A stretch of 64,000 nt of DNA from Micromonospora sp. WMMD1128 (GTDB lineage Bacteria > Actinomycetota > Actinomycetes > Mycobacteriales > Micromonosporaceae): NCBI RefSeq assembly GCF_027497235.1, contig NZ_CP114902.1:1935501-1999500 (forward strand), written 5' to 3'. This document shows positions 3-29,235 of this stretch, piece after piece (positions within the stretch are counted from its first letter, which is position 1; the number at the start of each line of letters is the position of its first letter). Under the pieces are notes generated by a model. The model was not told where the DNA came from and did no database searches. It saw only the letters and a program-made list of their open reading frames with translations. Both the position numbers and the translations under genes were made by a program.

Positions 3-2681
3 CTGGAGTGCGCGTGGGAGGCGCTCGAGTACGCGGGCCACCCGCCGAGTCGGGAACCGGGCCGGATCGGCGTGTTCGTGGGCACCGGCGTCAACACCTA
101 CCTGGCGAACCACCTGCTCGGGCGGCCGGACCTGCTCGCCGAGCTCGGCCCGCTGCCGATCCTCATCGGCAACGAGAAGGACCACGCGGCGACCCGGATC
201 GCCTACCGGCTGGGCCTGCGCGGCGCCGCGATCGGCGTGCAGACGGCCTGCTCGACCTCGCTCGTCGCGGTGCACCTCGCCTGCGAGAGCCTGCGCAGCG
301 GGGACGCCGACATCGCCCTCGCGGGCGGCGCGACGGTCAGCACGCCCCAGCAGCGCGGCTACCGCCACGAGCCGAACGGCATCGGCGCGCCGGACGGGCA
401 CTGCCGGGCCTTCGCCGCCGACGCCGCCGGGACGGTGGCCGGCAACGGCGCCGGGATCGTCGTGCTGCGGCGCCTCCGGGACGCGGTGGCCGACGGCGAT
501 CCCGTCCTCGGGCTGGTGCTCGGCTCCGCGGTCAACAACGACGGGGCCGCGAAGGTGGGTTACACCGCGCCCGGGGTCGCCGGTCAGGCCGAGGTGATCG
601 GCATGGCCCTGGCCCGGGCCGGCGTCGACCCGGCGAGCGTCGACGTGGTGGAGGCACACGGCACGGGCACCGAGATCGGCGACGCCATCGAGGTCGCCGG
701 CCTCGGCGAGGCGCTGGGGCGGGGCGGCCCGGCGGGCGTACGCCTGCTGGGGTCGGTGAAGCCGAACCTCGGCCACCTCGACGCCGCCGCAGGCATCACC
801 GGGATGATCAAGATGCTGCTCGCCCTGCGCCACGGGATCGTGCCGCCCACCGTGAACCACGACCGGCCCCACCCCGACATCCCGTTCGCCGAGGCCGGCC
901 TGCGCGTCAACACGACGGCCGAGCCTTGGCCGGCGCGCGGCGGGCCGCGCCGGGGCTGCGTCAGCTCGTTCGGCATCGGCGGCACCAACGCCCACGTCGT
1001 CCTGCAGGAGGCGCCCCCGCCGCCGGTCACACCGAGGACGGCGGACGCCGATCTCGTCGTGCTGAGCGGGCGCACCCCACAGGCGGTACGGGTGGCGGCG
1101 CGGCGGCTCGGCGACCACCTCGCGAACACGCCCCGGTGGGAACTCGCCGACGTCGCGCACACCAGCCGCGCCGGCCGTACCGCCTGGCCGACCCGGCGGG
1201 CGATCGTCGCCACCGACCGCGCCGACCTGCTGCGGCAGCTCGGCACCGAGGCGGAGCCGGTCACCGCGCCCCGCCGGGCGACGCTCGCGTTCGCCTTCCC
1301 CGGGCAGGGCAGCCAGTTCCCCGGCATGGCCGCCGGCCTGCACACGCGGCTGCCCGGCGTCCGCGAGCGGATCGAGACGGGCCTGGACGCGCTGCCGGCG
1401 GGCCGCGCCGACCCGGTGCGCGCCGTGCTCCTCGACCCGTCCGCCGCGGCGCAGGCGGCCCGCCCCTCGATCGCCCAGCCCGCCCTGTTCCTGCTGGAGT
1501 ACGCTCTCGGCGGCCAACTCCTCGACTGGGGCCTGCGACCGCAGCGGCTGATCGGACACAGCGTCGGCGAGTACGCCGCGTTCTGCCTGGCCGGCGGCCT
1601 GCGCCCGGCCGACGCCCTGGCCCTGCTCACCGAACGCGGGCGGCTGGTGGAGCGCACCCCGCCCGGCCGGATGGCCGCCGTGCTGGCCGGCCGGGACCGG
1701 GTGGCCGCGCTGCTGACACCCGGCGTGCAGGTGGCCGCCGACAACGCTCCCGGCGTCACAGTGGTCTCCGGCCCGCCGGCCGGGGTGCGGGAGCTGTCCG
1801 ACCGGTGCGCCGCCGCCGGCATCCGGGTACGCCCCGTGCCCGCCGCGCACGGCTTCCACTCCCGCCTGCTCGACAGCATCCGCGACGACTTCCGGACGGC
1901 CGCCGCCTCGGTGCCGCACCACCCGGTCACCACCACCGTCCTCTGCGGACTGACCGGGCAACCGGTGGTCGAGGGCACGACCCGCCCCGCCGAGCACTGG
2001 GTGCGGCAGATGTGCGAGCCGGTCCGGTTCCGGGAGGCCGCCGCCGAGTTGCTGGCCGTGCGTCACCCGGTCGTCCTGGAGGTCGGACCGGGCCGGGCAC
2101 TGACCGCGCTGGTCCGCGCGGCGGGCGGCGGGCCTGTCCCGGTGGCGCCCACGATGCCGGCCACGGCGGGCCCCGACGCGCTGCCGGTGCTGCTGCGGGC
2201 GGTCGCGACGGCGTGGATTGCGGGCGTCGAGCCGGACTGGGCCGCGTTCCGGCTCGACCCGGCCGCCCGGCGGGTACCGCTGCCGGCGTACCCCTTCGAG
2301 CGCGTCCGGCACTGGGTCGACCTCACCCCGCCCGGGGCGGCGGCGGTGGCGGACAGCGCGGCGGTCCCGGCGGTCCCGGCCGCGCCGACCGCGCCGGGCG
2401 CGCCGACCGCGCCGGGCGCGCCGACCGAGCCCGAGACGTCCGCCGCCGCCGTGGAACGGGAGATCATCGCGGCGTGGCGGGACCTGCTCGGGGCGACCGA
2501 CGTGGTGCCCGAATCCGACTTCTTCGCGCTGGGCGGGGAGTCGTTGGTCGCCGTGCGGATGCTCAGCCGGCTGCGACAGCGCTGCGGCGTCCGCGTACCC
2601 CTGCGGATCCTGGCGCAGGACCCCACCGTGCGCGGGCTGACACGGGCGGCCCTCGACCGCCTGCCGGCCCGCGTCAACTAG
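3..2681 (+). CDS. Type I polyketide synthase, C-terminal part (KS-AT-ACP), 5' end outside window
   Basis: The reading frame is open from the first bases of the window, so the N-terminus lies upstream. A ketosynthase comes first: the active-site Cys in TACSTS is at nt 249-251, followed by the HGTGT box near nt 658 and a KPNLGH motif near nt 763. An acyltransferase follows, with FPGQGSQ near nt 1297, GHSVGEY near nt 1555 and an HGFH motif that resembles malonyl-type rather than methylmalonyl-type ATs. A Pro/Ala-rich linker with repeated APTAPG units leads to an acyl carrier domain with the phosphopantetheine serine in GGES (about nt 2542). No ketoreductase or dehydratase is present, so the module would leave a beta-keto group unless a trans enzyme acts. 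The KS motif SPDGHCRAF-like (APDGHCRAF here) is typical of KSs in NRPS/PKS hybrids. One malonate extension of an amino-acyl or aryl starter is the likely role. Confidence 0.93.
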   Translation: MECAWEALEYAGHPPSREPGRIGVFVGTGVNTYLANHLLGRPDLLAELGPLPILIGNEKDHAATRIAYRLGLRGAAIGVQTACSTSLVAVHLACESLRSGDADIALAGGATVSTPQQRGYRHEPNGIGAPDGHCRAFAADAAGTVAGNGAGIVVLRRLRDAVADGDPVLGLVLGSAVNNDGAAKVGYTAPGVAGQAEVIGMALARAGVDPASVDVVEAHGTGTEIGDAIEVAGLGEALGRGGPAGVRLLGSVKPNLGHLDAAAGITGMIKMLLALRHGIVPPTVNHDRPHPDIPFAEAGLRVNTTAEPWPARGGPRRGCVSSFGIGGTNAHVVLQEAPPPPVTPRTADADLVVLSGRTPQAVRVAARRLGDHLANTPRWELADVAHTSRAGRTAWPTRRAIVATDRADLLRQLGTEAEPVTAPRRATLAFAFPGQGSQFPGMAAGLHTRLPGVRERIETGLDALPAGRADPVRAVLLDPSAAAQAARPSIAQPALFLLEYALGGQLLDWGLRPQRLIGHSVGEYAAFCLAGGLRPADALALLTERGRLVERTPPGRMAAVLAGRDRVAALLTPGVQVAADNAPGVTVVSGPPAGVRELSDRCAAAGIRVRPVPAAHGFHSRLLDSIRDDFRTAAASVPHHPVTTTVLCGLTGQPVVEGTTRPAEHWVRQMCEPVRFREAAAELLAVRHPVVLEVGPGRALTALVRAAGGGPVPVAPTMPATAGPDALPVLLRAVATAWIAGVEPDWAAFRLDPAARRVPLPAYPFERVRHWVDLTPPGAAAVADSAAVPAVPAAPTAPGAPTAPGAPTEPETSAAAVEREIIAAWRDLLGATDVVPESDFFALGGESLVAVRMLSRLRQRCGVRVPLRILAQDPTVRGLTRAALDRLPARVN

Positions 2682-2699
2682 CGACACCTGGGAGAGACC

Positions 2700-3461
2700 G
2701 TGTCCGCATCGACGCCGGCCCTGGAAGTCCTCGCGGACGGCCCGGGCGCACCGCTCGTGATCATCGACTTCATCCGCATCTCCGCCGGCGCCGGGCTCGG
2801 CGAGCTGCTGGCCTCCGCGCCCGCCGACCGGCCCGTGTACCGCGCCGACCCGGTCGAGACGCTCCTGCGCGCCGACCGGTTCCGCAGCGCCACCGACCTC
2901 GCCGAGGAGTACGCCGCGGCCGTACACCGCCTGCCCGTGCGCCCGGCCCGGATCGTGGGTTACTGCAGCGCGACGCCGGTGGCCGTCCGCACCGCCGAGC
3001 TGACCGGGGTGCCGCTCGTCCTGGTCGAGCCGACCTGGCCCGACCGGGCCGCCGCGGCACACGACTTCCGCGGCTTCCGCGCCACCCTGCGCGAGGGCGA
3101 GCCGGCGGCGGTGCCACTCGACGCCGACCCGGCACGGGCCCTGTCCGTGATGGCGCGCACCCTGGACGGCGACCTCGACGTGTTCGCCCGCGCGAACGAT
3201 CTGCCCGACGACGAACGGCAGGACACCCGCGAGCAGCTCGTCGACAGGTACGTCGCCTGGCTGCACGTGCTGCTCTCGGCGTCCGCCGACCCGGTGCCGC
3301 CTCGGCCCGCCGACGTGGTGCTGGCCAGCCGCGACTACACGGCCGAGCACCCGGGCGTCGAGACGCTCCGGCTCGACCTTTCCGCCGGTGAGATGCCGAC
3401 CGCGCCGGTGACCCGGGCCGCCCTGATGGCGCTTGTCGACCCGACGGCGGCGCTCCGGTGA
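2700..3461 (+). CDS. Thioesterase-like alpha/beta-hydrolase with Cys at the nucleophile elbow
   Basis: A 253-residue protein starts at GTG 2700, with the purine-rich sequence GGGAGAG just upstream and 18 bp after the PKS stop. Length and position suggest a stand-alone thioesterase of PKS/NRPS systems. The only elbow-like motif is G87-Y-C89-S-A91, which places Cys rather than Ser as nucleophile. The C-terminal region that normally carries the catalytic His (GxH) reads AGEMPT here, so the His is not obvious. Some NRPS thioesterases use Cys, for example the beta-lactone-forming one of obafluorin synthesis. The fold assignment rests on overall pattern only. It may release, edit or merely bind an intermediate. 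It overlaps the downstream adenylation gene by 4 bp, so the two are translationally coupled. Confidence 0.55.
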   Translation: MSASTPALEVLADGPGAPLVIIDFIRISAGAGLGELLASAPADRPVYRADPVETLLRADRFRSATDLAEEYAAAVHRLPVRPARIVGYCSATPVAVRTAELTGVPLVLVEPTWPDRAAAAHDFRGFRATLREGEPAAVPLDADPARALSVMARTLDGDLDVFARANDLPDDERQDTREQLVDRYVAWLHVLLSASADPVPPRPADVVLASRDYTAEHPGVETLRLDLSAGEMPTAPVTRAALMALVDPTAALR

Positions 3462-4969
3462 CCGCGTACCTGTCCGAGCTGGTGCTGGCGCAGGCGGCCC
3501 GGACACCCGGCGCGTGCGCCGTCGTGGACGAGCGGGAGTCGCTGACGTACGCGGAACTGGTCCGGCAGGCCGGCGTGGTGGCCGGACTGCTGGTCGCGGC
3601 GGGGGTGGAGCGGGACGCCGTGGTGGCGGTCTGCGCCGAACGGTCGGTCCGCTTCCCGGTGCTGCTGCTCGGGGTGCTGCTGAGCGGGGCCGCATACCTG
3701 CCCCTGGAACCGGGCGACCCCGTGCCCCGCCTCGCCGGCATGCTCGACGACGCCGGCGCGGTTCTCGTCCTGACCGAGCCGGAGCTGAAGGCCGCCGCCG
3801 AGGCCGTCGCCGGGAGCCGTCGCGTGCTCGCCGTCTCCGCCGGTGAGCTGCGCGCGGGCGTCCCGGCGGCGCCGGTGCTGCCCGCCTCGGACCTGGGGTT
3901 GGCCTACGTCCTGTTCACCTCGGGCTCCACCGGGCGCCCCAAGGCCGTCGGCGTGGGGCACCGCGGCATCGTCAACCGGCTGCGCTGGATGCAGGACGAG
4001 TACGCCCTGACCAGCGCCGACGCCGTCCTGCAGAAGACACCCGCGACGTTCGACGTGTCGGTGTGGGAGCTGTTCTGGCCGCTCGCGCAGGGCGCCCGCC
4101 TGGTGCTGGCCCGGCCGGGCGGGCAGCGTGACCCGGAATACCTGATGGCCGTCCTGCGGCGGAAGCGGATCACCGTGGTTCATTTCGTGCCGTCCATGCT
4201 GGAGTCCGTCCTCGACGAGCCCGGTTGGGACGGGTACGACGCGCTGCGGCTCGTGGTCTGTAGCGGCGAGGCGCTCACACCGGCCGCCGTGCGCCGGTTC
4301 CGGGCGCGGAGCCGGGCGCGGATCGACAACCTGTACGGGCCTACCGAAGCCTCGATCGACGTCACCTGGTGGCCCTGCCGCCCGGTGGAGGACGGCGACT
4401 CGGTGCCGATCGGCCGGCCGATCGCGAACGTGGTGGTGCGGGTACTCGACGCGGACGGGAACCCGGTGCGCGAGGGCGTGCCGGGGGAGCTCCACCTCGG
4501 TGGCGACCACGCGCTGGCGCGGGGATATCTCGGCCGGCCGGGGCTCACCGCGGAGCGGTTCGTGCCGGACCCCTTCGCCGCCGGCGCCCGGTTGTACCGG
4601 ACCGGCGACCTCGTCCGGTGGCTGCCCGGCGGGGTGCTGGAGTTCCTCGGCCGCCTCGATCACCAGATCAAGCTGCGCGGGCAGCGGATCGAGCCGGGCG
4701 AGATCGAGGAGACGCTGCGCCGGCATCCGGGCGTGACCGGCGCCGTCGTCCTGTTGCGCCGCGACGAGGGACGCGCCGACCGCCTGGTCGGCTATGTGGT
4801 GGGGCCGCCCGACGGCCCCGGTGAGCGGGAGCTGCGGGCCCATCTGGCCGAACGGCTGCCCGCGCCGATGGTGCCGGCCCGGCTGGTACGCCTGGCGGCC
4901 TTCCCCCTCACCGCGAACGGCAAGCTGGACCGCGCGGCGCTGCCGGAGCCACCGCGACGCAGGCGGTAG
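3458..4969 (+). CDS. Stand-alone NRPS adenylation protein, predicted serine-activating
   Basis: The 503-residue protein starts with GTG overlapping the previous stop (GTGA). It contains the adenylation core motifs: TSGSTGRPK (about residues 154-162), FDVSVWE (198-204), NLYGPTE (291-297), YRTGDL, the LRGQRIEPGEIE region and NGKLDR near the end. Aligning by eye to the GrsA/EntF numbering gives the ten-residue specificity code D199-V200-W203-H242-V267-S269-L292-I300-D301-K. This is a classical L-serine code (compare DVWHLSLIDK). No thiolation or condensation domain is attached, so the seryl-adenylate must be passed to a carrier elsewhere, perhaps the ACP of the adjacent PKS or a carrier outside the window. 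The gene ends exactly one base before the stop of the convergent minus-strand operon, leaving no space for a terminator. Confidence 0.93.
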   Translation: MTAYLSELVLAQAARTPGACAVVDERESLTYAELVRQAGVVAGLLVAAGVERDAVVAVCAERSVRFPVLLLGVLLSGAAYLPLEPGDPVPRLAGMLDDAGAVLVLTEPELKAAAEAVAGSRRVLAVSAGELRAGVPAAPVLPASDLGLAYVLFTSGSTGRPKAVGVGHRGIVNRLRWMQDEYALTSADAVLQKTPATFDVSVWELFWPLAQGARLVLARPGGQRDPEYLMAVLRRKRITVVHFVPSMLESVLDEPGWDGYDALRLVVCSGEALTPAAVRRFRARSRARIDNLYGPTEASIDVTWWPCRPVEDGDSVPIGRPIANVVVRVLDADGNPVREGVPGELHLGGDHALARGYLGRPGLTAERFVPDPFAAGARLYRTGDLVRWLPGGVLEFLGRLDHQIKLRGQRIEPGEIEETLRRHPGVTGAVVLLRRDEGRADRLVGYVVGPPDGPGERELRAHLAERLPAPMVPARLVRLAAFPLTANGKLDRAALPEPPRRRR

Positions 4970-6256
4970 TCAGCGCACGAACCCGATGTGGGCGGTGGCC
5001 ATCAGCGAGCCGGGCTCGCAGAACGGCACCCGCTCGACGACGCGGCCCTCGTCGAGGTCCACGACGAACAGGGTGGAGGCGCCGGTCATGAAGACGTACC
5101 GGCCGGAGGGCTCGACCGCCAGGTAGAGCGGCGACTGGCTGTTCTTCGCGCACATGAAGGGCGGCCGGACCGGCTCGTGCGCGAACAGCTCCAGGTCGAG
5201 AATCGTGGACATGTCGGCCGGGTCGAGGACGAACAGCCGGTTCGGGAAGCCGGTGACCGCGATGAGCTGCCGACCGTCGCGGTGGAACAGTTGCTGCGAG
5301 GTGATGCGCAGGAAGGTCGGCCCGGTGTGGGTGGCCTCCCGGACCGCGTGACCGCCCTGGTAGCGCCACCGTTCGAGCACACCCGGCCCGTGCACGACGA
5401 CGTTGTTCTGCCACTTCGAGATGTTGTTGCAGGAGACGTAGAAGACGTCCGGATCGTCCAGGTCGACGTCGACGTGCGCGGAGCAGCTCGCGCCGGTGGT
5501 GTGCACCGAGGCGCGGGTCAGCTTCTCGTCCGCCACGACGAACCGGCCGGTGGGGAACTCGTTGGCCGCGTACCGGGCGACGTCGAGGCTGTCCCCGTCG
5601 GTGCCCAGCACCCGGCCGTCGGCGCCGGGGCGCACCGACAGGTCCATGTCGACGCCGACCATGAACCCGTTCGGCGACGCCTCCAGCTCGTGGATGGTGT
5701 CGAAGGCGAACTCGGGCAGGTCGCCCAGCCGGGTCGCCGCGCCGGTGCGCAGGTCGTAGCGCCAGGCGCTGCTGCGCAACGGCTGGTCCGGGTCGTGGTA
5801 GCGGCGCAGGCGGTCCTCGGCGTCGGTCATCGCGAAGGCGATCACGCCGGGCTCGACCTCGCACTTGGTGGAACTCTGCATCGCCGCGAAGTCGAGCTCG
5901 GCCGCCGGCGGCCACAGGTGCGAGCCGCCGTCGCGGCCGAGGCGACGCAGGTAGGGCGCCTGTTTGAAGGAGACGACGACCTCGCCGTCGTCGGTCTGCA
6001 CGAAGCTGTGCGGGTGCAGGAAGTACGGGAGCAGGTCCTCCAGCCGGCCCAGCCCGTACGGCACCGGGTTGTCGCCGAGCCGCTCCCGCAGCACCGCCAA
6101 CTGGCGGGACCGCAGGTCACCGATGTCGATCGTGGTCTCCCGCACGGTCCGGGAGCCCACGTCGAGGAAAAGGTACCGCTCGTGGGTGCCGCCCGCGGAC
6201 AACCCGCAGACCAGGATCGTCAGGTCGCCGTACCCCGCCGACATCGGCAGGCTCAT
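4970..6256 (-). CDS. Unrecognised beta-propeller-like protein, last gene of the chorismate operon
   Basis: The 428-residue start is set at ATG 6256 because it overlaps the upstream stop as ATGA. An in-frame ATG at 6268 is also possible. The protein has no signal peptide or membrane segment. It is built of repeated beta-strand-rich segments with recurring Asp/Gly turns (for example FLDVGS, VVADEK, YVSCNN, IAVTGFPNRLFVLDP, LAVEPSGRYVFMTG, LFVVDLDEGRV), the usual look of a seven-bladed propeller. Conserved-looking His pairs (HPHSF near residue 83, and HVDVD) could bind metal, as in carotenoid-oxygenase-type propellers, but I cannot show a four-His site. As the last gene of an operon devoted to amino-chorismate chemistry, it is probably an enzyme or scaffold of the pathway. 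No family is claimed. Confidence 0.6.
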   Translation of the reverse strand: MSLPMSAGYGDLTILVCGLSAGGTHERYLFLDVGSRTVRETTIDIGDLRSRQLAVLRERLGDNPVPYGLGRLEDLLPYFLHPHSFVQTDDGEVVVSFKQAPYLRRLGRDGGSHLWPPAAELDFAAMQSSTKCEVEPGVIAFAMTDAEDRLRRYHDPDQPLRSSAWRYDLRTGAATRLGDLPEFAFDTIHELEASPNGFMVGVDMDLSVRPGADGRVLGTDGDSLDVARYAANEFPTGRFVVADEKLTRASVHTTGASCSAHVDVDLDDPDVFYVSCNNISKWQNNVVVHGPGVLERWRYQGGHAVREATHTGPTFLRITSQQLFHRDGRQLIAVTGFPNRLFVLDPADMSTILDLELFAHEPVRPPFMCAKNSQSPLYLAVEPSGRYVFMTGASTLFVVDLDEGRVVERVPFCEPGSLMATAHIGFVR

Positions 6257-8052
6257 TTCAACAGCCACAACAGCGCCTCCCGGAGGATGGTGATGCAGTT
6301 GGTGGTGAGGACGGACTCGACATGGAACTGGAAGCTGGTGAACCGTTCGGAACGCAGCGCCACCACCCGGCCGTCGGGCTCCACGGCCACGGTCACCCCG
6401 GCGGGGGCCTCGGCCGGGGCGTCGGCGAAGAAGGTGTTGTAGAAGCCGACCGGCTCGGCCCGGCCGAACAGGTCGACGGTCTCCTGCACGCCCTGCAACG
6501 GCGGGTCCACCGGGCGCACGGTCATGCCGAGCAGACGGCAGAGGATCTGGTGGCCGAGGCAGACGGCGAGGAACGGCGTGCCGGTCTTCATCAGCTCGCC
6601 CACGATGCGGTGCAGTTGGGCGATCTTCGGGTCGTTCATCTCGTTCGGGTCGCCGGGACCGGGCCCGACGAGCACCAGGTCGTAACCGGTGAGGCCGATG
6701 CCGGACTCCCGGTAGTCGCGCATGGTGACCTTGAACCCGAGGTGTTCGAGGATGTGCTTGAGCATCTCGGTGAACTGGTCCTCGTTGTCGACGATCAGCA
6801 CCGAGCGGCCGATGAGTTCGGGCGCGGCGTACCTGTCGTCGACCTGCCTGTTGATCCAGAACCGGGACAGGTAGCGGTTCCGCCCGTTCAGCACCTCGAG
6901 GACCTTGTCGTCCACGAACCGGTCGAGGAAGGGACCGGGCGGTTCGGCGGTGGTGATCGCCTTCAGCAGCCCCTCGGCCTTGGTGCGCACCTCACGGCAC
7001 TCCTTGGCGGGCACCGAGTCGCGGACGACGCTGGCGCCGCTGCGGATCACGGCGTGCCCGTCGGCGTCCACCGCCATCGTCCGGATCGTGATGGCGCTGT
7101 CCAGCCACTCCTGCCCGTCGTCCTCCAGGCCGCGGATCATCAGGGCGGACGAGTAGTAGCCGCGGGACTCGGACTCGTGGCGGTGGATGACCCGGGCGGC
7201 GTTCTCCAGTGGGCTGCCGACCATCGTCGCGGCGAACATCGACTCCCGGAACGCGTCGAGCGGGCTCATGGTGGCGCTGCCCTCGAGCACGTACTCGGTG
7301 TGGACGAGCGCGCTCATCTCCTTGAGGTACGGTCCGCGCACGACGCCGCCCTCGCCGCAGATCCGCGACATCATCTTGAGCTCCTCGTCGACCACCTGGA
7401 AGAGCTCGTTCACCTCCTTGCGGTCGGAGAGGAACTCGATGAGGTCGGCCCGCTTCTGCAACGCGGCGCGCGGCAGCGTGCCGCAGATCGGGTTCATCGT
7501 GACCGTGCCGCGGCGGTAGGTCAGGTGCCGTTCTGGCGAGGACCCGATGAAGTAGCGCTCCCCGTCGAAGAAGCAGAAGGTGAGGTACGCCCCGATCTCG
7601 TTACGGGCGAGCCGGGCGAAGATCGTGTGCGCGACCTCGGGCCCGAAGTCACCGATGGTGACGTCGCACCGCCGCGAGATGAGGAAGTTGGAGCCCTCAC
7701 CGCGCTGGATCTCCTCCTTGATGACCCGGTCGATACGGGCGGCGAACTCCTCGTCGTCCGGAGTGTGCACGGGCTCGGAGACCACTCGGACGTCGGCGCG
7801 CACGTCGGCGAACGACTCCAGCTCGACCTCACGGAACTCGCTGGGCACCAACGAGATGAGCGGCTCGTTGTCGTCGTGGCAGACGTAACCGCGCTCACGC
7901 AACTGCGCGTAGGGCACCATGGTCAGCACCGGGTGGGCGGCCGGGCGAGGCACCTCGGCGAGCGACCAGGACCGCACGGTCTCCCCGCGAGCGTAGTTGA
8001 CCCGACCCTCGGAATGGACGAGGCAATAGGGGCTAGCGAAGTCAAGACTCAC
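6253..8052 (-). CDS. PhzE-like 2-amino-2-deoxyisochorismate synthase (fused chorismate-binding and glutamine amidotransferase domains)
   Basis: The 599-residue protein has an N-terminal chorismate-binding (TrpE/MST) domain over about the first 390 residues, with the conserved stretches TMNPICGTLPRA, FQVVDEELKMM and MVGSPLENAARV. A class I glutamine amidotransferase domain follows over the last 190 residues, with GPGPGDP, the Cys nucleophile in AVCLGHQ and the FQFHVES His/Glu pair. This order (synthase first, amidotransferase second) is that of PhzE and some fused anthranilate synthases. Such enzymes aminate chorismate at C2 to give ADIC. PhzE- and SgcD-type enzymes stop there, whereas anthranilate synthases also expel pyruvate. 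The residues that decide this were not resolved by eye. It starts 11 bp inside the upstream carbamoyltransferase gene and overlaps the downstream gene by 4 bp. Confidence 0.88.
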   Translation of the reverse strand: MSLDFASPYCLVHSEGRVNYARGETVRSWSLAEVPRPAAHPVLTMVPYAQLRERGYVCHDDNEPLISLVPSEFREVELESFADVRADVRVVSEPVHTPDDEEFAARIDRVIKEEIQRGEGSNFLISRRCDVTIGDFGPEVAHTIFARLARNEIGAYLTFCFFDGERYFIGSSPERHLTYRRGTVTMNPICGTLPRAALQKRADLIEFLSDRKEVNELFQVVDEELKMMSRICGEGGVVRGPYLKEMSALVHTEYVLEGSATMSPLDAFRESMFAATMVGSPLENAARVIHRHESESRGYYSSALMIRGLEDDGQEWLDSAITIRTMAVDADGHAVIRSGASVVRDSVPAKECREVRTKAEGLLKAITTAEPPGPFLDRFVDDKVLEVLNGRNRYLSRFWINRQVDDRYAAPELIGRSVLIVDNEDQFTEMLKHILEHLGFKVTMRDYRESGIGLTGYDLVLVGPGPGDPNEMNDPKIAQLHRIVGELMKTGTPFLAVCLGHQILCRLLGMTVRPVDPPLQGVQETVDLFGRAEPVGFYNTFFADAPAEAPAGVTVAVEPDGRVVALRSERFTSFQFHVESVLTTNCITILREALLWLLK

Positions 8053-9838: not shown

Positions 9839-9851
9839 GCCCATCACCCCG

Positions 9852-21712: not shown

Positions 21713-22629
21713 CCGCGGAACCGATGCGGGACTGGTTCGACCGCGCGGGCGTGCGGGTGGATCCGCGCCGGGTGCTCACCGACGAGCTGGACGGCGGGAA
21801 GGTGCTCTTCCCGGCCCGGCTGATCCCCTACCTCGGCCACCGACTGGTGGACCGCCTGGACGACGAGGCCCGGGCGGCGTTGGTCGCCCGGCACACCTAC
21901 CACTACTTCGCGTTCACGGCCCACTTCGAGACGAGGGTCGTCAACCGGGCCACGGAGATGCTCGCGAACGGCCGGGCGGACGTGCCGTTGCGCCGGGACG
22001 TCCGGTTCGACGCCTACAAGATCTACTGCGACGAGGCGTACCACGCGCTCTACTCGTTCGACGTGGTGCGACAGTTGGAGTCGGCGAACCGGGTCGCGGC
22101 ACTGCCGTACGACTTCACCCCGTTCCTGAACCGTCTCGACGGCATCTCGTCCGACGTCATGCCGCGCCGCGGGACGCTGCCGCAACTGTTGCAGGTCGTC
22201 GTCTTCGAGACGCTGGTGACCACCCTGCTGGCCGAGTTGCCGAACGACCCCGACCTGGTCGGGCTGGTTCGCGAGACGGTCCGCGACCACGCCCGGGACG
22301 AGGGTAGGCACCACGCCTTCTTCGCCCACCTGTTCCGCGAGTTGTGGGCGGGGCTCGACCCGGCCGCACGCCGGGAGACCGCCAGATGTCTGCCCCGGTT
22401 GATCGGGCACAGCCTGCGGCCGGACCTGCGGCCCGCACGGGCCAACCTGGCCGCCGCGGGACTCACCCCCGCGCAGGTCGAAGAGGTGGTACGTGACGTC
22501 TACCACCCGGATTCCGTGCGGCGGGGCGCACGCGAGCAGGCCGTCCAATCCGTCAAACTGTTCCGCTCCTGCGGTGTGCTCGACCTGCCCGAGGGGCTCG
22601 ACGCCTTCCACGAGGAGGGACTCCTGTGA
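21709..22629 (+). CDS. AurF-type diiron N-oxygenase
   Basis: The 306-residue protein shows the complete ligand set of AurF (p-aminobenzoate N-oxygenase) with matching spacing: E74, E109-xx-H112 (in DEAYH), E167, H194, E198-xx-H201 (in HARDEGRHH). In AurF the ligands are E101, E136, H139, E196, H223, E227 and H230. The family oxidises an amine to hydroxylamine, nitroso or nitro in several steps (AurF, CmlI) or makes N-N/N-oxide groups in small peptides. The substrate here could be the beta-amine of Dap, since the gene is wedged between the two Dap-synthesis genes, or the arylamine from the chorismate branch. It is translationally coupled on both sides (GTG starts overlapping stops by 4 bp). 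Confidence 0.9.
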   Translation: MTAEPMRDWFDRAGVRVDPRRVLTDELDGGKVLFPARLIPYLGHRLVDRLDDEARAALVARHTYHYFAFTAHFETRVVNRATEMLANGRADVPLRRDVRFDAYKIYCDEAYHALYSFDVVRQLESANRVAALPYDFTPFLNRLDGISSDVMPRRGTLPQLLQVVVFETLVTTLLAELPNDPDLVGLVRETVRDHARDEGRHHAFFAHLFRELWAGLDPAARRETARCLPRLIGHSLRPDLRPARANLAAAGLTPAQVEEVVRDVYHPDSVRRGAREQAVQSVKLFRSCGVLDLPEGLDAFHEEGLL

Positions 22630-23684
22630 CCACCTCAGTCGGCCGATGGTTCACGGCCGGACTGCCCGGGCTGCGCGGGCCGGGCGGCGTCGCGGTGCTG
22701 TCCCGCGCGGACGTCCTGCGCTGCCTCGACGCGCTCGACGTGGTGGCGCTGGTCCGGCGCACCCTCGCCGACCACGACGCGGGGCGCTGCGTGCTGCCCG
22801 GCGAGGCATACCTGCGCTGGAACAACGGCCGGGGCGCGTACACCCGGTCGATCGGGATGCCCGCGGCGGTGCCGGGCGCCTACGGGATGAAGATCATCAA
22901 CGCCAGCGTCTCGAACCCGGCGGTCGGGCTGGAGCGCGCGAGCGGGGTGGGGCTCTGCTTCGACCCGGAGACCGCCCGGATCACGGCCGTCGTGGAGGTC
23001 GGGATCATCAGCGCCGTACGCACCGCCGCCGTCTCCGCCGTCGCCGTCGACCTCACCGGGCACACGGACGCGGAGAGCCTGACCGTGCTCGGCTGCGGAG
23101 CGCAGGGCGGCACCCACGCGGCCCTGTTCCTCGAGACCCTTCCGTGCCTGTCCCGGGTCACGCTCCACGACCGCGTCGGCGCCTCCGCCCGCGGCCTCGC
23201 GGAACGCCTGCGCCGGCTCCGCCCCGGGCTGGACGTACGCATCACCGCCGAGGCGGCCCCGGCCGTCGCGGCCGGGCAGGTGATCATCGCCACGACCACG
23301 GCGGACGAGGGCTATCTGCCGCCGGAGTGGATTCCCGCCGGCGCCCTGGTCGTCAACGTGTCGCTGGCGGACCTGACCGCCGAGGCGCTGCTCGCCGCCG
23401 GCGCCCTCTACGTCGACGACGTCGATCTGGTCGCGGAGAACCCCAGACGCCCGCTCGGCGGACTCATGGCGCACGGTCGGGTGACCCGCCCCGGCTCGAC
23501 GACCGGCCGGGCGATCGACGGCACGATCGGCGGCCTGATCACCGGCCGGCACCAGCGCGTACCGACACGTTCCTACGCCGTGGTGAATCCGTTCGGCATG
23601 GGCGTGCTCGACGTCGCCCTGATCGAGGAGGTACGCCGCCACGCCGCCGCCGCGGGCCTCGGGTCGACGGTGGACCTCGGATGA
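22626..23684 (+). CDS. SbnB-like Dap-forming dehydrogenase (ornithine cyclodeaminase family)
   Basis: The 352-residue protein of the ornithine cyclodeaminase/mu-crystallin family has an N-terminal dimerisation/substrate region with KIINASVSNP near residue 89, and a Rossmann NAD site GCGAQGG (156-162). In SbnB this enzyme oxidatively cleaves the SbnA product to 2,3-diaminopropionate and 2-oxoglutarate. The pairing with the SbnA homologue in one operon supports that reaction over cyclodeamination to proline. GTG start inside the previous stop; its stop overlaps the next gene as ATGA. Confidence 0.88.
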   Translation: MTTSVGRWFTAGLPGLRGPGGVAVLSRADVLRCLDALDVVALVRRTLADHDAGRCVLPGEAYLRWNNGRGAYTRSIGMPAAVPGAYGMKIINASVSNPAVGLERASGVGLCFDPETARITAVVEVGIISAVRTAAVSAVAVDLTGHTDAESLTVLGCGAQGGTHAALFLETLPCLSRVTLHDRVGASARGLAERLRRLRPGLDVRITAEAAPAVAAGQVIIATTTADEGYLPPEWIPAGALVVNVSLADLTAEALLAAGALYVDDVDLVAENPRRPLGGLMAHGRVTRPGSTTGRAIDGTIGGLITGRHQRVPTRSYAVVNPFGMGVLDVALIEEVRRHAAAAGLGSTVDLG

Positions 23685-24616
23685 CCGGGACCCGGCGCAG
23701 CCTCATCTCCCTGCGCGATCTCACCGCCGCCCAGCTCACCTGCCTGGTCGAGGCCGCCGTCCGGGTCGCCGACGACCCGGGCGCGGTGCCGCCGACCCTG
23801 ACCGGCACGGTGGTGGCGACACTCTTCGAACGCACGTCGACCCGGACCCGCACCGCGTTCGGCGTGGCGGCGCTCCGACTCGGCGCGCAGGTGCTCGACT
23901 ACGGGCCGGCGAGCCTGCAGACGAACACCGGCGAGTCCGCCGAGGACACCGCGCGGATCCTCGGCCTGATGCTCGACGGGGTGGTGATCCGCAGCACCCG
24001 CACCGTCGCCGAGCTGGCCCGGATGCGGGACGCCGGAAACCTGCCGCTGATCAACGCGATGGCCCGGGAGGAACACCCCACGCAGGCGGTGTGCGACCTG
24101 GCGACGCTGCGACGGCATCGCGGCACCCTGGACGGCATCCGGGTGCTGTACGTCGGCGAGGGCAACAACACCGCCTCCGCGCTGGCGTACGCGCTGGCCC
24201 GGATCCCGGGCGCCGAGCTGACCCTCTACACCCCGCCGGGCTACGGCCTCGACGCCGCGAGCCTGGCCGCGGCGGAGAAGGACGCCGTGCCGGGCGCCCG
24301 CGTGCGCCAGACCCACGAACGGGACGAACTCCCGGACACCGCCGACTGTGTTTACACCACACGGTGGCAGACCACCGGAACCGTCAAGGAGGACCCGCTG
24401 TGGCGCCAGACCTTCCGGCCCTTCCACATCGACGAGGACTTTCTGAGTCGCTGGCCGCAAGCGGTGTTCCTGCACGATCTGCCGGCGCACCGAGGGGAGG
24501 AGGTGTCCGCGGCCGTCCTCGACTCGCCGCGGAGCCTGGTGTGGCAGCAGGCGCGGATGAAACTGGACAGCGCGACGGCGGTCCTGCAGACCTTCTGGGG
24601 CACCTCAACCACCTGA
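23681..24616 (+). CDS. Variant ornithine-carbamoyltransferase homologue, probable Dap N-carbamoyltransferase
   Basis: The 311-residue protein keeps the carbamoyl-phosphate site: S53-TRTR57 and H132-PTQ135. The amine-acceptor motifs differ from true ornithine transcarbamylases. HCLP is H265-D-L-P268 here (Cys replaced by Asp 266), and the usual DxxxSMG loop reads TTRWQTTGT. Homologues of this type accompany Dap genes in viomycin and zwittermicin clusters, where a beta-ureido group is made. The simplest reading is conversion of Dap, free or carrier-bound, to beta-ureidoalanine. Housekeeping arginine genes (argBCDJ) are not adjacent, which also argues against arginine synthesis. Confidence 0.85.
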   Translation: MTGTRRSLISLRDLTAAQLTCLVEAAVRVADDPGAVPPTLTGTVVATLFERTSTRTRTAFGVAALRLGAQVLDYGPASLQTNTGESAEDTARILGLMLDGVVIRSTRTVAELARMRDAGNLPLINAMAREEHPTQAVCDLATLRRHRGTLDGIRVLYVGEGNNTASALAYALARIPGAELTLYTPPGYGLDAASLAAAEKDAVPGARVRQTHERDELPDTADCVYTTRWQTTGTVKEDPLWRQTFRPFHIDEDFLSRWPQAVFLHDLPAHRGEEVSAAVLDSPRSLVWQQARMKLDSATAVLQTFWGTSTT

Positions 24617-24624
24617 CCGTCGCG

Positions 24625-24849: not shown

Positions 24850-24852
24850 CGC

Positions 24853-26211
24853 ATGCAACCGGTGACCCTGCTGGTGTACGGCAAGGGCGGGCCCGCGCTG
24901 GAATACCTGCTGCCGAGACTCACCAGCCGTGCCGTCGTCGACGTCCTGCTGGTCGGCGAGCCCTTGCCCTGGCAGCGCGAACTCCTGTTCCGCCTGTGCC
25001 GACAACTGCGCCACGCCCGGCCCGACGCCCCACTGGCCGACGAGATCGTCGAGCACGCCACCGCCGTACGCGCCGACGCCGTGCTCACCTTCTCCGAGTT
25101 CTGCGTCGTGCCCACCGCGGCGGCCTGCCTGCGACTCGGCCTGCCCGGGCCCGGCCCGGGCGCGGCGACCTCCCGCAACAAGCTGCTCATGCGGCGCGCC
25201 TGGGAGGCGGCGGGCGTACCGAATCCGGCGTTCCGTCCGGTCGACTCGCTCGACGACCTGGCCGCGGCCTGCGCCGAGCTGGACGGTCCCGTGATCGTCA
25301 AGTCGGTCCTCGGCGCGGGTTCGATCGGGCAGGCCACGATCCAGCCCGGCGACGACCCCGAGCCGGTGTGGCGGGAACTCGCGGCGGCCGTCGACGCCGC
25401 GCGGGAGTCGGGCATGTCCGAGCACGGCAGCGCCGGCGGACCCCGCTTCCTGGCCGAGGAGGTCATCGACGCGAGCACGGAGGGCTGGTACACCGAGCCC
25501 GGCTTCGGCGACTACCTCAGCGTGGAGGGGCTGGTGGCGGGCGGCACCTACCACCCGCTGGCGATCACCGCACGGCTGCCCACGATCCCGGTGTACGTGG
25601 AGCTGAGCAACCAGGCGCCGTGTGTGCTGGCGCCGGCGCTGCAACAGCGCATCGCCGACGTCGCCCGCCGTGCCGTCGACGCGCTCGATCTGGACACCTG
25701 CGCCACGCACACCGAGTTCAAGCTGATGGCCGACGGCTCGGTGCGGCTCCTGGAGTCGGCGGCCCGCGCCGGTGGTGCGGCCGTCACCCGCGAACTGCTG
25801 GAGGTCTACGGCGTCGACCTCATCGCCCTCCAGCACGCCGCCGCGCTCGACGAGGCGCCCGACGTGCCGGGTCGGCTGCTGCTGCCCGCGGACGCCACCT
25901 GCGCCGCCGCGTCCCTCTCGGTCATCGCGTCCGACTCGTCGGGCAAGCCCTGGCCGGTGCTGCCCCCGTTCGATCCCGACCATGTCGACTGGTCGTCCCT
26001 GGTGTCGCCCGCCACCACGGTCGAACTGGTGCGCGGTCAGTCTCAGGAGCCGGGCACGCCGATGCCCCGTTACCACCCGAACACCGGCGTGCTCGGCTAC
26101 GCCGGCCTGCTCTTCCTGCGGACCACCGACCCGCTGACGCTGCGCGACGACGCGCTCCGGATCCTCGACGGCCTCGCCGAGGCGATGGACCGGGCCCGGA
26201 GGACGCCCTGA
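24853..26211 (+). CDS. ATP-grasp ligase (amino-acid/peptide ligase type)
   Basis: The 452-residue protein has the ATP-grasp layout. An N-terminal Rossmann-like domain ends near residue 105 (RNKLLMRRAWEAAGVPNP, where the ATP-grasp domain begins). The nucleotide Lys is in VIVKSVLGAGSIG near residue 150, with an EEV hinge near 199 and THTEFKL...LLESAARAGG as the metal/ATP end of the fold near 290-310. Such enzymes couple a carboxylate to an amine through an acyl phosphate (BacD, DdaF, carnosine synthase-like). Here it probably forms an amide between two of the cluster's building blocks, for example ureidoalanine and another amino acid. AGGAG at 24839-24843 is its ribosome site. Confidence 0.85.
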   Translation: MQPVTLLVYGKGGPALEYLLPRLTSRAVVDVLLVGEPLPWQRELLFRLCRQLRHARPDAPLADEIVEHATAVRADAVLTFSEFCVVPTAAACLRLGLPGPGPGAATSRNKLLMRRAWEAAGVPNPAFRPVDSLDDLAAACAELDGPVIVKSVLGAGSIGQATIQPGDDPEPVWRELAAAVDAARESGMSEHGSAGGPRFLAEEVIDASTEGWYTEPGFGDYLSVEGLVAGGTYHPLAITARLPTIPVYVELSNQAPCVLAPALQQRIADVARRAVDALDLDTCATHTEFKLMADGSVRLLESAARAGGAAVTRELLEVYGVDLIALQHAAALDEAPDVPGRLLLPADATCAAASLSVIASDSSGKPWPVLPPFDPDHVDWSSLVSPATTVELVRGQSQEPGTPMPRYHPNTGVLGYAGLLFLRTTDPLTLRDDALRILDGLAEAMDRARRTP

Positions 26212-26248
26212 CCCGCCCGTACCGCTCCGACGAAGGAAATGGAGTCCG

Positions 26249-28012
26249 ATGTCTCTCGTGCTCGGCCTGAACCTCAGCCACGACCGCTCTGCCTGCCTGG
26301 TGCGCGACGGCGAGATCGCCGTTGCCGTCGAAGAGGAGCGCCTGGACCGCATCAAGCACTCCGAGGGTTTCCTCGTGCAGGGACACTTCGAGCGCATCAC
26401 CAAGACCCTGCCGATGAAGGCGGTCACCTACTGCCTCGACGCGGTCGGCGCCGGCATCGACGACGTGGACCTGGTGGTCGGCAACCGCCCCCTGGGCGAC
26501 GGGGCGGTCCGCCGCATCCTGCGCGAGCTGCCCATCAAGGACAAGACCAAGGTCCGCGCGCTGCCGCTGCCCGGCCACCACCGCGCACACGCCGCCGTCG
26601 CCTACTACCCCTCCGGGTACGACGAGGCGGCCGTCCTCGTCGTGGACCAGGCCGGCGCCCGGTTCCCGGACAGCACCATCGAGAAGCACACCCTGTTCCG
26701 GGGGACCGGCGACCGGTTGGAACCGGTGGCCGCCTGCCGCTACCCGGCCGACTACTCCGACCTGAGCCTCGGCCTGTTCTACGACTTCTTCACCACCAGG
26801 TTGGGCTTCGTCACCAGGTACGGCACCCCGGACTTCGGCGTGTTCGGCTGCGGGGGCTATCCGGAGGCGGGCAAGACCATGGGGCTGGCACCCTACGGCC
26901 GGCCGCGTCCCGACTGGGGTGACTGGCTCACGTTCGACGGCTTCGACATCCGCTCGGCCCAGAAGGACCTCGAGGACATCTGGCAACGGCTGCTCGCCGA
27001 GGAGGGCGCCGGCTACGACCCGGCGGACCCGCTGCGCTGGCAGTCGCCGTTCGCGGAGGACGTCGCCTATCACGTGCAGGCCGAGCTGGAGCGGGCGATG
27101 CTGCACCTCGCCGGGGTGGCGCACGAGCTGACCGGCTCGGACCACCTCTGCATGGCCGGCGGCGTCATGCTCAACTCGGTCGCCAACGAGCGGGTGCGCG
27201 CCGAGTCACCGTTCCGGGAGGTCTTCATCCCGCCGGCGGCCGGCGACTCGGGTGTCGCGATCGGCGCGGCCCTCCACGGCAGCGTCGAGCTGCTCGGCGC
27301 CCGGCGTCCCGCGGTGATGCGGACGGCGTCCTTCGGCCGGGCGTACACGCGGGACGAGGTGCTGGACGCGCTGCGCACGGTCGTCGACCACACGGGAGTG
27401 GAGCTGACCTGGCGGGAGGCCGGCCCCCGCGACGTCGCCGAGCTGCTCGCCGCGCACCGGGTCGTCGGATGGTTCAGCGGCGGTTCCGAGATCGGCCCGC
27501 GGGCGCTCGGCAACCGCAGCATGCTGGCGGACCCGCGGCACCCCGCGATGCGCGACTACCTGAACACCGTGGTCAAGCATCGGGAGCCGTTCCGCCCGTA
27601 CGCTCCGTCCGCGCTCGTCGAGCACGCGGACAGCTGGTTCGACTTCACCGGCGAGAGCCCGTTCATGCTGCTCGTCCCGCAGGTGAGCGCGGCCCATCGG
27701 GAGAGCGTCCCGAGCATCACCCATGTCGACGGCACCGCCCGCCTGCAGACGGTCTCGGCGGCCGACAATCCGGCCTACCACGCGGTGATCTCCGCGTTCC
27801 ACGAGTTGACCGGGGTGCCGATCGTGCTGAACACGTCGTACAACGACGCCGGCGAGCCGATCGTCGAGACACCGCTGCACGCCCTCTGCACGTTCGTCCG
27901 CACCGAACTCGACCACCTCTACCTTGACGGGATCCTGGTGACCAAGTCCGGGCGGGAACTCGGCGCGTCCCATCCCGCGCGCACGCCGCTCACCGGAGAC
28001 AACGCCCGGTGA
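26249..28012 (+). CDS. Carbamoyltransferase of the NodU/TobZ/CmcH family (second copy)
   Basis: The 587-residue protein starts at ATG 26249 with GAAGGAAATGGAG upstream. The N-terminus LVLGLNLSHDRSACLVRDG and AVEEERLDRIKHSEG are family hallmarks, as are GHHRAHAAVA near residue 110, CMAGGVMLNSVAN near 302 and IGPRALGNRSMLADP near 416. The Kae1-like domain makes carbamoyl-adenylate and the YrdC-like part handles transfer, as known for TobZ. This second O-carbamoyltransferase of the cluster lies in the Dap operon. The stop overlaps the MFS gene start (GTGA). Confidence 0.93.
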   Translation: MSLVLGLNLSHDRSACLVRDGEIAVAVEEERLDRIKHSEGFLVQGHFERITKTLPMKAVTYCLDAVGAGIDDVDLVVGNRPLGDGAVRRILRELPIKDKTKVRALPLPGHHRAHAAVAYYPSGYDEAAVLVVDQAGARFPDSTIEKHTLFRGTGDRLEPVAACRYPADYSDLSLGLFYDFFTTRLGFVTRYGTPDFGVFGCGGYPEAGKTMGLAPYGRPRPDWGDWLTFDGFDIRSAQKDLEDIWQRLLAEEGAGYDPADPLRWQSPFAEDVAYHVQAELERAMLHLAGVAHELTGSDHLCMAGGVMLNSVANERVRAESPFREVFIPPAAGDSGVAIGAALHGSVELLGARRPAVMRTASFGRAYTRDEVLDALRTVVDHTGVELTWREAGPRDVAELLAAHRVVGWFSGGSEIGPRALGNRSMLADPRHPAMRDYLNTVVKHREPFRPYAPSALVEHADSWFDFTGESPFMLLVPQVSAAHRESVPSITHVDGTARLQTVSAADNPAYHAVISAFHELTGVPIVLNTSYNDAGEPIVETPLHALCTFVRTELDHLYLDGILVTKSGRELGASHPARTPLTGDNAR

Positions 28013-29235
28013 CTCTGCTTCCGGACCTCGGTTCCGCGACCCGCCGTGAGCACCACCTGCGGCGGGTCCGCACCGGCTTCGTGCTCAGCCAGGTCTTCTT
28101 CGGCCTGGCGACCAGCCTGTTCGACATGTACTACGCGTTGTTCCTCGGGCAGGTGGGCATCTCGCCGGCCGGCGCCGGCCAGGTCTTCTCGGTCGGCTTC
28201 ACCGTCATGGCGGTGATCGTGCTGCCGCTGAGCGCGTTCACCGACCGGCTCGGCCTCGAACCGATGATGTTGCTCAGCAGCTTCGGCTTCGCCGGCACGA
28301 TGCTGGCGATCCCGTTCGTCGACAGCCTCTCCGCCCACCTGGTGCTGTTCGGCCTCAACAGCGTCTGCTCCGCGCTGATGCTGGTGAGCGTCAACGCCGT
28401 GCTCGCCTCGGCCATCGACGACGAGCAGGCGCGCTTCGCGGTGTTCCGCACCGGCTTCGTCGCCTTCCTCACCGCTTCCGCGGTCGGCAACGTGGCCGGC
28501 GTGTTGCTCGCCCGGGTCGGCGACGAGAGCGCCGGCTGGTACCGCTTCGATCTGCTGTGCTCAGCCGTGCTGGCCCTGCTGATCGGGATCTCCCGGACAG
28601 CCATGTGGCGTCGCGGCGCCCGGCCGGCCCGCGCGCCCGGCGAGTCCCGCCCGCCGGTCCTGCCGGCGCTGCGCGCCGACGCCGCTCACCTCACCGGCCT
28701 GTTCGCCCTGGCCGTCCTCGTCGGTGGCGCCGGCGTCCTCGCCATCCGCTTCATCAACCTGGTGGCCGTCAACTACCTGCACCTGGCCACCGAGTCGCTG
28801 GGCTGGCTCCTGGTCGCGGACCGCCTGGCCAGCGTCCTGGGCATCTTCGTCCTGTTCCCCCTGATGAAGCGCGGCGGGGCTCTCCGCGTGGCCGGCCTCG
28901 CCATGATCGCGGCGCTGTTCCTCCAGTTCCTGAGCGCCACCGCCGGCACGGCCAGCCTCTTCGTCCTCTGGTATCTGCTGCGCCAGGGGGCCCATTACGC
29001 CCAGATGCCGGTCCTTGACAGTTTCGCCAACAGTCGGGCCGCGCACGGCACCCGCGCCTTCGTGAACGGTGTCCAGCGGATGGGCATCTTCACCGGAAGC
29101 GCCGTGGCCTCCCTCGCCTACGGCACCCTGATGGCGGCCGGTCGCTACCCGGCCGCCATCGTCCTCTCCGGTGTCCTGTCCCTCCTGGCCGGCGTGTTGT
29201 ATCTGGTCCAGTCCCGCCACGGGCTTCGCCGTTGA
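28009..29235 (+). CDS. MFS transporter, probable product exporter (second copy)
   Basis: The 408-residue protein has about 12 membrane helices. A short N-terminal Arg/His-rich stretch precedes the first helix (TGFVLSQVFFGLATSLFDMYY), and a hydrophilic loop at about residues 195-220 separates the halves. The classic loop-2 motif is degenerate (SAFTDRLGLEPM). Last gene of the ten-gene operon, coupled to the carbamoyltransferase by GTGA. Likely export or self-resistance. It is not closely similar to the MFS at 15.7 kb, so the two may move different compounds. Confidence 0.88.
   Translation: MTLLPDLGSATRREHHLRRVRTGFVLSQVFFGLATSLFDMYYALFLGQVGISPAGAGQVFSVGFTVMAVIVLPLSAFTDRLGLEPMMLLSSFGFAGTMLAIPFVDSLSAHLVLFGLNSVCSALMLVSVNAVLASAIDDEQARFAVFRTGFVAFLTASAVGNVAGVLLARVGDESAGWYRFDLLCSAVLALLIGISRTAMWRRGARPARAPGESRPPVLPALRADAAHLTGLFALAVLVGGAGVLAIRFINLVAVNYLHLATESLGWLLVADRLASVLGIFVLFPLMKRGGALRVAGLAMIAALFLQFLSATAGTASLFVLWYLLRQGAHYAQMPVLDSFANSRAAHGTRAFVNGVQRMGIFTGSAVASLAYGTLMAAGRYPAAIVLSGVLSLLAGVLYLVQSRHGLRR

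Follow-up and report, generated by a model that had tools for sequence, protein, structure and literature searches.

A compact, rare and modular orphan NRPS-PKS gene cluster of Micromonospora with an altered chorismate branch and a separable, putative diaminopropionate block

The genome of Micromonospora sp. WMMD1128 (6.81 Mb, one contig) contains an orphan cluster of 25 genes that is real, compact, rare and modular. The cluster extends over about 35.6 kb and occupies the left part of the 64,000-nucleotide stretch analysed here (NZ_CP114902.1, positions 1,935,501 to 1,999,500; G000:C1:1935501-1999500; hereafter the window), beginning outside it. It unites a nonribosomal peptide synthetase-polyketide synthase (NRPS-PKS) assembly line with genes for chorismate amination, radical S-adenosylmethionine (SAM) proteins, putative 2,3-diaminopropionate (Dap) synthesis, N-oxygenation and carbamoylation. 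We consider it fairly probable that this orphan cluster of three modules directs the formation of a small peptide/polyketide that would be both carbamoylated and N-oxidised. A product of this kind had been expected in a model-made annotation of the bare sequence (the original prediction), and our analysis supports it by inference.

Results and discussion

Cluster boundaries, rarity and modularity

The gene calls in the window were borne out by codon-position composition and hmmscan, and every gene type listed in the original prediction was recovered at its place by hmmscan/NCBIfam, several with scores below the curated cut-offs. The flank left of position 1, which the original prediction had wanted sequenced, was taken from the same genome sequence and, from position -6396 on (negative numbers lying left of the window), encodes a peptidyl carrier protein-thioesterase (PCP-TE), a major facilitator superfamily (MFS) exporter (MFSa) and an NRPS with thiolation (T), condensation (C) and adenylation (A) domains in the order T-C-A(Val-type)-T. 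The boundaries were then assessed by a tblastn comparison in which 39 proteins were matched to 72 kb from each of two relatives, G064 and G102. All 25 genes, the first being PCP-TE at -6396 and the last the MFS gene that ends at 29235, were colinear in the three Micromonospora-type genomes, with identities across G064/G102 of 82-96% per gene and of 69-73% for the chorismatase reading frame, whose N-terminal extension is doubtful. Twelve of the 14 genes beyond these limits had no match in the relatives' 72-kb stretches; for the other two, a ketosynthase-ketoreductase-acyl carrier protein (KS-KR-ACP) gene and an MFS gene, the matches were paralogous (30-39% identity), and the neighbouring genes differ among the three cluster-bearing genomes. 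The shared run and the non-shared flanks thus delimit a cluster of about 35.6 kb. Its right edge at 29235 coincides exactly with the one predicted earlier (3-29235), but the predicted left edge was that of the window only, the true one lying about 6.4 kb outside.

The cluster is rare. Strong relatives of its chorismatase-like protein were found in three of 151 genomes of the genus, namely the three cluster-bearing ones, and two further genomes gave weak matches (E 2.4e-4 and 8.5e-4). A second marker protein, u432 (4970-6268, minus strand), is present in three of 354 genomes of the family, and in a class-wide search in one of 394, its own genome. In G102 the cluster lies on a contig that we equate with NZ_PYPS01000002 of Micromonospora sp. 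RP3T.

Among 392 Streptomyces genomes, u432 occurred in a single one, that of Streptomyces fodineus (G851). The 55 kb read there contain relatives of the HemN-like radical SAM proteins HemN1 and HemN2, the tRNA-editing, chorismatase-like, PabA-, PabB- and PhzE-like proteins, the O-carbamoyltransferase CT1 and u432, and also of PCP-TE, MFSa, the NRPS, the KS-acyltransferase (AT)-ACP synthase, u253 (32%) and the serine-type A domain; we refer to this set as the core. An ATP-grasp gene (28% identity) and an MFS gene (33%) were found as well. The SbnA-, AurF- and SbnB-like proteins, the ornithine transcarbamylase (OTC)-like protein, the amino-acid permease, a 335-aa protein and the exporter MFSc had no match at E 1e-5 in these 55 kb, the rest of the genome not having been searched for them, and the second O-carbamoyltransferase, CT2, matched only the CT1 gene. 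Since the core thus stands in the 55 kb read without the Dap/AurF/OTC/CT2 block, the cluster is modular; the earlier notion of one hybrid cluster holds for a single cluster, but one with a separable core. Left of the S. fodineus core (L020:2589-13767) lie a C-A-T NRPS and fatty-acid desaturase, class-III aminotransferase, AMP ligase, amidohydrolase and shikimate-dehydrogenase-like genes, possibly an accessory module of its own.

Further hints came from the protein database, in which chorismatase-like, u432 and PabB-like relatives were all on contigs of the same size in three cases (30595, 23474 and 4631595, the last from Cellulosimicrobium protaetiae). Two of the three families coincided in this way, among the matches listed, on contigs of 9222, 9320089, 498463, 9698948 (S. 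fodineus), 4637, 13208 and 10178. Equal contig sizes are indirect evidence that the three core families share contigs in other bacteria. Together with the colinearity in two further genomes, they speak against a chance arrangement.

Putative chorismate-derived building block

The fused chorismate-binding/glutamine amidotransferase encoded at 6253-8052 (minus strand) is PhzE-like: it scored 433 bits against PhzE (3r74), with residues 40-595 of 599 aligned, while the next solved chain reached 81 bits. It is likely a 2-amino-2-deoxyisochorismate (ADIC) synthase. Fused domain order and near full-length match are common to PhzE and the cluster protein, whereas no phenazine genes were recognised among the cluster genes.

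The chorismatase-like protein (13186-14211, minus strand, exact start uncertain) scored 29.3 bits against the FkbO/Hyg5 model TIGR04444, far below its cut-off of 325, and shares 22% identity with FkbO/Hyg5 chorismatases. A single-sequence search found no solved relative; a profile of 20 relatives retrieved Hyg5 and FkbO. Moreover, its predicted model (mean pLDDT 87) yielded chorismatases in the top seven Foldseek rows (E 1.8e-18 to 2.1e-14), the next fold following at 5.9e-7. Three residues that do not vary among 20 aligned sequences, Gly245, Cys323 and Glu330, align with Gly240, Cys327 and Glu334 of Hyg5; FkbO has Ala, Ala and Glu at these positions. Chorismatases of the CH-II (Hyg5) type convert chorismate to 3-hydroxybenzoate. 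According to the available part of PMC7170507, the Gly and Cys are signature residues of the CH-II type and the Glu is the catalytic acid. A third CH-II signature, Gly164 of Nat-hyg5, could not be placed safely in the alignment. Judged by alignment and predicted structure, the protein is a distant clade of the chorismatase fold with Hyg5-type Gly, Cys and catalytic Glu, so that the chorismatase of the original prediction stands as a fold, though not as an ordinary FkbO/Hyg5 member. It resembles the FkbO/Hyg5 enzymes in fold and residues but differs in having an ADIC synthase-like protein encoded alongside, which makes it plausible that it acts on an aminated substrate. PMC11888242, as far as its available text goes, covers the FK-family chorismatase only.

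The original prediction had counted two independent chorismate-aminating systems. One of them, the PhzE-like protein, is upheld. The other consists of a PabA-like glutamine amidotransferase (12581-13189, minus strand), with GVCLGHQ and HPE present, and a PabB-like chorismate-binding protein (9852-11174, minus strand; its start chosen to match the 440-aa relative P0061) whose active site is altered. Residues were counted in the best 120 of 263 PabB-like matches, divided at a score drop from 262 to 144 bits into a clade of 19 and 101 others; a separate PabB-like alignment leaves out the G064 row. In the clade, Leu replaces the SPE-motif Glu in 19/19 members (Glu in 100/101 others), and Tyr replaces the HVxH-motif His in 18/19 (His in 100/101 others). 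Three Glu positions taken as the Mg site are kept in 19/19. The Lys of aminodeoxychorismate (ADC) synthase is absent as well, but Ala is common at this position among the others (89/101). Compared with TrpE/PabB, the anthranilate and aminodeoxychorismate synthases, the clade thus shares the Pfam domain and the three Glu but differs by Glu to Leu and His to Tyr. With two near-universal residues replaced, the PabA/PabB-like pair is unlikely to be a further chorismate aminase of the ordinary kind, and the clade would have a changed reaction if the roles that we assume for the SPE Glu, the HVxH His and the metal-site Glu, as in chorismate-utilising enzymes, hold.

Radical SAM proteins, u432 and carbamoyltransferases

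HemN1 (11182-12588, minus strand; CRQKCSFC) and HemN2 (17783-19291, plus strand; CEQRCTFC), the latter also a core member, both contain the CxxxCxxC motif. The closest solved chain was NocN, then HemN, for HemN1, and HemN, then NocN, for HemN2. HemN-like radical SAM proteins also take part in CC-1065/yatakemycin cyclopropanation by the two-component system C10P/C10Q; a SAM-methyltransferase partner was, however, not recognised among the annotated cluster genes, two cluster proteins having no family.

For u432, no Pfam or NCBIfam family was found, and a profile search of the PDB by sequence retrieved nothing significant (best E 0.12). Structure prediction gave, with good confidence (mean pLDDT 90.9), an all-beta fold that matches many kinds of beta-propeller, with a carotenoid cleavage dioxygenase (6vcg) at rank 6 and RPE65 at rank 31. 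Among 50 VIA-align rows, the longest alignment was with the selenium-binding-protein homologue 2ece, and vitamin-B12-binding and lactonase-like propellers ranked high. Carotenoid cleavage dioxygenases have a four-His metal site in a seven-bladed propeller; as so many propellers match and the PDB profile search gave no significant hit, that class is one candidate among several for u432. His85, 87, 193, 265, 293 and 427 are invariant in 22 aligned sequences; because of these residues, our guess is that the predicted propeller may be a metalloenzyme.

Of the two O-carbamoyltransferases, CT1 (8042-9847, minus strand; Pfam Carbam_trans_N and _C) belongs to the core, with a 61% identical counterpart in S. 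fodineus. CT2 (26249-28012, plus strand) is TobZ-like (259 bits) and belongs to the Dap block. CT1 and CT2 are about 33% alike across relatives.

Assembly line

The assembly line comprises the T-C-A-T NRPS, the KS-AT-ACP polyketide synthase with a malonyl-type AT motif (3' part at 1-2681, plus strand; gene start about 0.5 kb left of the window, L002:9502), a free-standing A domain (3458-4969, plus strand) with the serine-type code DVWHVSLID, and PCP-TE. At the positions that we take to form the code, the NRPS A domain reads DAMWLGGVF, a Val type; its S. fodineus counterpart reads DALWLGGTF. A comparable organisation is documented in the available part of PMC9967187 for an orphan cluster of Micromonospora sp. 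AKA38, pks/nrps-7, with PCP-TE (complement strand), C-A(Val)-PCP, KS-AT(malonyl)-ACP and A(Ser); its closest relatives are placed in strain RP3T. That text merges the cluster with an enediyne-type synthase and, to the extent available, does not discuss chorismate, Dap, radical SAM or carbamoylation genes. The domain order described equals the one found here, and we take the NRPS-PKS part of pks/nrps-7 to represent the same cluster. The original prediction had stated that no described cluster combines this gene set. We found no characterised cluster with this combination among open-licence PMC papers, and in that respect the statement stands; by domain order, however, the NRPS-PKS part is already on record as part of the AKA38 orphan cluster.

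The putative Dap block and its relatives

Downstream of HemN2 follow, all on the plus strand, the amino-acid permease (19295-20698), an SbnA-like pyridoxal phosphate enzyme (20702-21712; 245 bits against an NCBIfam cut-off of 350), an AurF-like diiron N-oxygenase (21709-22629; Pfam AurF 91 bits, NCBIfam AurF 39 of 620 bits), an SbnB-like dehydrogenase (22626-23684; 199 bits, cut-off 327), the OTC-like transcarbamylase (23681-24616; 219 bits, curated cut-off 281), a BacD-like ATP-grasp ligase (24853-26211; BacD model 161 of 850 bits), CT2 and, as the final cluster gene, MFSc (28009-29235). Despite their sub-cut-off bits, the SbnA and SbnB models are the best-scoring families for their proteins, and Dap synthesis is the likely function of the pair. 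In an alignment, the AurF-like protein keeps all seven positions that we take to be diiron ligands. The OTC-like protein has the carbamoyl-phosphate motifs STRTR and HPxQ. Usual OTCs carry a Cys in an HCLP motif; here the motif is HDLP. In fact, all OTC-like proteins compared in frame (the alignment excludes the G773 row) share STRTRTAF, HP(S/T)Q, TTRWQTTGT and HDLPAHRG.

Relatives of the AurF-like protein at E 1e-15 or better were found in 30 of 295 Streptomyces genomes. The survey lists 38 matches, 20 of them with loci up to 3.9 kb, in which MFS matches were not counted. SbnA and/or OTC relatives accompanied AurF in 11/20 loci and an O-carbamoyltransferase-like gene in 1/20; loci L027-L031 showed the order AurF-OTC-SbnA. 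Longer stretches were read in six genomes. The operon of G629 runs MFS-SbnA-AurF-SbnB-OTC-methyltransferase, that of G773 SbnA-AurF-SbnB-OTC-methyltransferase, and that of G558 MFS-SbnA-AurF-OTC-methyltransferase-aldehyde dehydrogenase. In all three Streptomyces operons annotated further, the methyltransferase stands where CT2 would be. Gene content and gene order suggest a sequence of Dap formation, N-oxidation, N-carbamoylation and capping by a methyl or carbamoyl group.

Other AurF contexts were seen as well. A different cluster (G548:C1:9556001-9596000, L053/L054) has two AurF-like genes together with SbnA/SbnB-like and OTC-like genes and, in addition, genes for a haem-oxygenase-like protein (PF14518), a DAP-epimerase-like protein (PF01678) and a 2-oxoglutarate oxygenase (PF10014). 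At G547:C7:590001-610000 (L056) an AurF relative adjoins an O-carbamoyltransferase-like gene, with no SbnA/SbnB/OTC relatives in the 35 kb read.

Proposed pathway

Beside the observed gene content, boundaries, modularity and residue changes we set a pathway whose every reaction, like its product, we infer. In the core, the PhzE-like enzyme would convert chorismate to ADIC, from which the chorismatase-fold enzyme may expel pyruvate by neighbouring-group attack, giving a benzoate or dihydrobenzoate that bears an amino or hydroxy substituent. The PabA/PabB-like pair, which lacks the conserved His and Glu but keeps its presumed metal site, would act on a later intermediate instead of aminating chorismate in the ordinary way. 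Remodelling of the unit would fall to HemN1, HemN2 and u432, and CT1 would carbamoylate a hydroxyl group. Once the serine-type A domain has loaded a carrier, the chain would be extended by T-C-A(Val)-T and KS-AT(malonyl)-ACP and released by PCP-TE. In the accessory block, seen only in the Micromonospora clusters, SbnA/SbnB would supply Dap, the AurF-like enzyme may oxidise its side-chain nitrogen, the OTC-like enzyme would N-carbamoylate and CT2 O-carbamoylate the product, and the ATP-grasp ligase would join it on. The tRNA-editing protein may guard against misuse of the unusual amino acid.

Several points weigh against this scheme. A single free A domain does not account for the loading of two carriers, namely the first T domain and the PCP in PCP-TE. 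The matches of the SbnA-, SbnB-, OTC-, AurF-, BacD- and chorismatase-like proteins all lie under the NCBIfam curated cut-offs, so we treat these proteins as family members and not as proven equivalents. Eight of the 20 Streptomyces AurF loci had no SbnA, SbnB, OTC or O-carbamoyltransferase relative within about 1.5 kb, and the AurF-like enzyme could take an aminated ring as its substrate instead of Dap. Beyond Micromonospora, S. fodineus contributed the one cluster that was read. Finally, as set out below, two of the three Micromonospora clusters lie close to another synthase.

Alternative readings

A first alternative is that two unrelated pathways lie side by side, the core making one compound and the Dap block a separate N-oxidised ureido amino acid. 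The occurrence of the core without the block in S. fodineus, and of SbnA/AurF/SbnB/OTC operons with their own MFS and methyltransferase genes elsewhere in Streptomyces, would fit such an arrangement. Yet each of the three Micromonospora clusters has the two blocks next to each other and in colinear order, and HemN2, a member of the core, heads the plus-strand run that holds the Dap genes. We therefore regard two separate pathways as possible but rather unlikely.

Less likely again is a role of these genes in furnishing peripheral groups of an enediyne. C-1027 carries an ADIC-derived benzoxazolinate as such a group. About 9 kb left of PCP-TE, G064 and G102 carry a synthase with KS, AT, KR and dehydratase (DH) domains, followed by a thioesterase-like gene and a cytochrome P450 gene. 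PMC9967187, in its available part, puts the same NRPS-PKS order into an enediyne-type orphan cluster of AKA38. None of the 25 genes encodes a PksE-type synthase, however. The closest full-length relative in G000, 58% identical to the synthase beside the G064 cluster, lies about 185 kb from the cluster (G000:C1:2149276-2155020, L023), and the S. fodineus genome, which bears the core, has no match at E 1e-200 or better. As the synthase is neither adjacent in G000 nor found at this threshold in S. fodineus, we rejected enediyne membership as the principal interpretation and treat the cluster as enediyne-independent.

A bolder version of the proposed pathway would make the accessory block a bacterial quisqualate-type route, in which Dap would be N-hydroxylated, the OTC-like enzyme would add a carbamoyl group to nitrogen and CT2 one to oxygen, and cyclisation with release of ammonia would give a 1,2,4-oxadiazolidine-3,5-dione; this would be ligated to a chorismate-derived ring rebuilt by the two radical SAM enzymes, the His-rich propeller and a chorismate-binding enzyme no longer using chorismate. 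We offer this as a speculation with little likelihood; among the open-licence PMC papers listed in a literature search, none pointed to a bacterial quisqualate pathway.

Dap synthesis and a transcarbamylase are also features of the viomycin and zwittermicin pathways, but a product of that type, with Dap as its chief building block, is very improbable here: SbnA/SbnB, the transcarbamylase, the serine-type A domain and KS-AT-ACP are present, yet they come with just one NRPS and one PKS module, a chorismate branch, two radical SAM proteins and an AurF-like oxygenase, no aminomalonyl/hydroxymalonyl extender dehydrogenases were recognised among the annotated genes (two being without family), and the core exists without Dap genes.

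Literature searches under ureidoalanine-type terms likewise gave no matching cluster among the open-licence papers listed. PMC11479980 mentions, in the part available, S. scabies proteins similar to AurF, SbnB and carbamoyltransferase, without such a cluster.

Remaining and neighbouring genes

Besides u432, the original prediction had overlooked the YbaK-type aminoacyl-tRNA editing domain protein (16872-17363, minus strand; Pfam tRNA_edit 81 bits, YbaK model 48 of 153 bits), the amino-acid permease, a third MFS gene and two proteins without family. The first of these two, u253 (2700-3461, plus strand), is conserved in G064/G102, is 32% identical in S. fodineus and contains GYCSA, hydrolase-like by eye only. 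The second is the 335-aa protein (14657-15664, plus strand), also conserved in G064/G102; an acyltransferase, suspected by eye, was discarded as family searches gave no significant match. It is followed by the exporter MFSb (15661-16869, plus strand).

Left of the cluster lie a KS-KR-ACP synthase (domains named by eye), a separate AT-like gene and a multidrug and toxic compound extrusion (MATE) exporter (L003:4420-8742, L001:15157-16350), which are not kept beside the cluster in G064/G102. Just past the right edge, the gene at 29373-32219 combines PIG-L, NPCBM-associated and CBM9 domains in one protein of 948 aa. Genes for urease beta, urease alpha and UreG follow, with transporter periplasmic-binding-protein and permease genes (32653-45963); the urease genes had no tblastn match in the relatives' 72-kb stretches.

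Conclusions

The analysis defines a cluster family of soil bacteria that is sharply delimited in Micromonospora, is represented by its separable core in Streptomyces fodineus and has left signs of that core in Cellulosimicrobium. Three enzyme groups stand out: a chorismatase-fold clade beside a likely ADIC synthase, a PabB-like clade in which the usual His and Glu are missing, and a predicted six-His propeller without a Pfam model; several enzyme groups in the cluster are apparently uncharacterised. SbnA-, SbnB-, AurF- and OTC-like genes form a recurring set; in three Streptomyces operons a methyltransferase gene comes after it, in the present cluster an ATP-grasp ligase and an O-carbamoyltransferase gene, and this makes the formation of an N-oxidised ureido amino acid testable with few small enzymes. 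The cluster as a whole probably makes a small, antibiotic-like compound.

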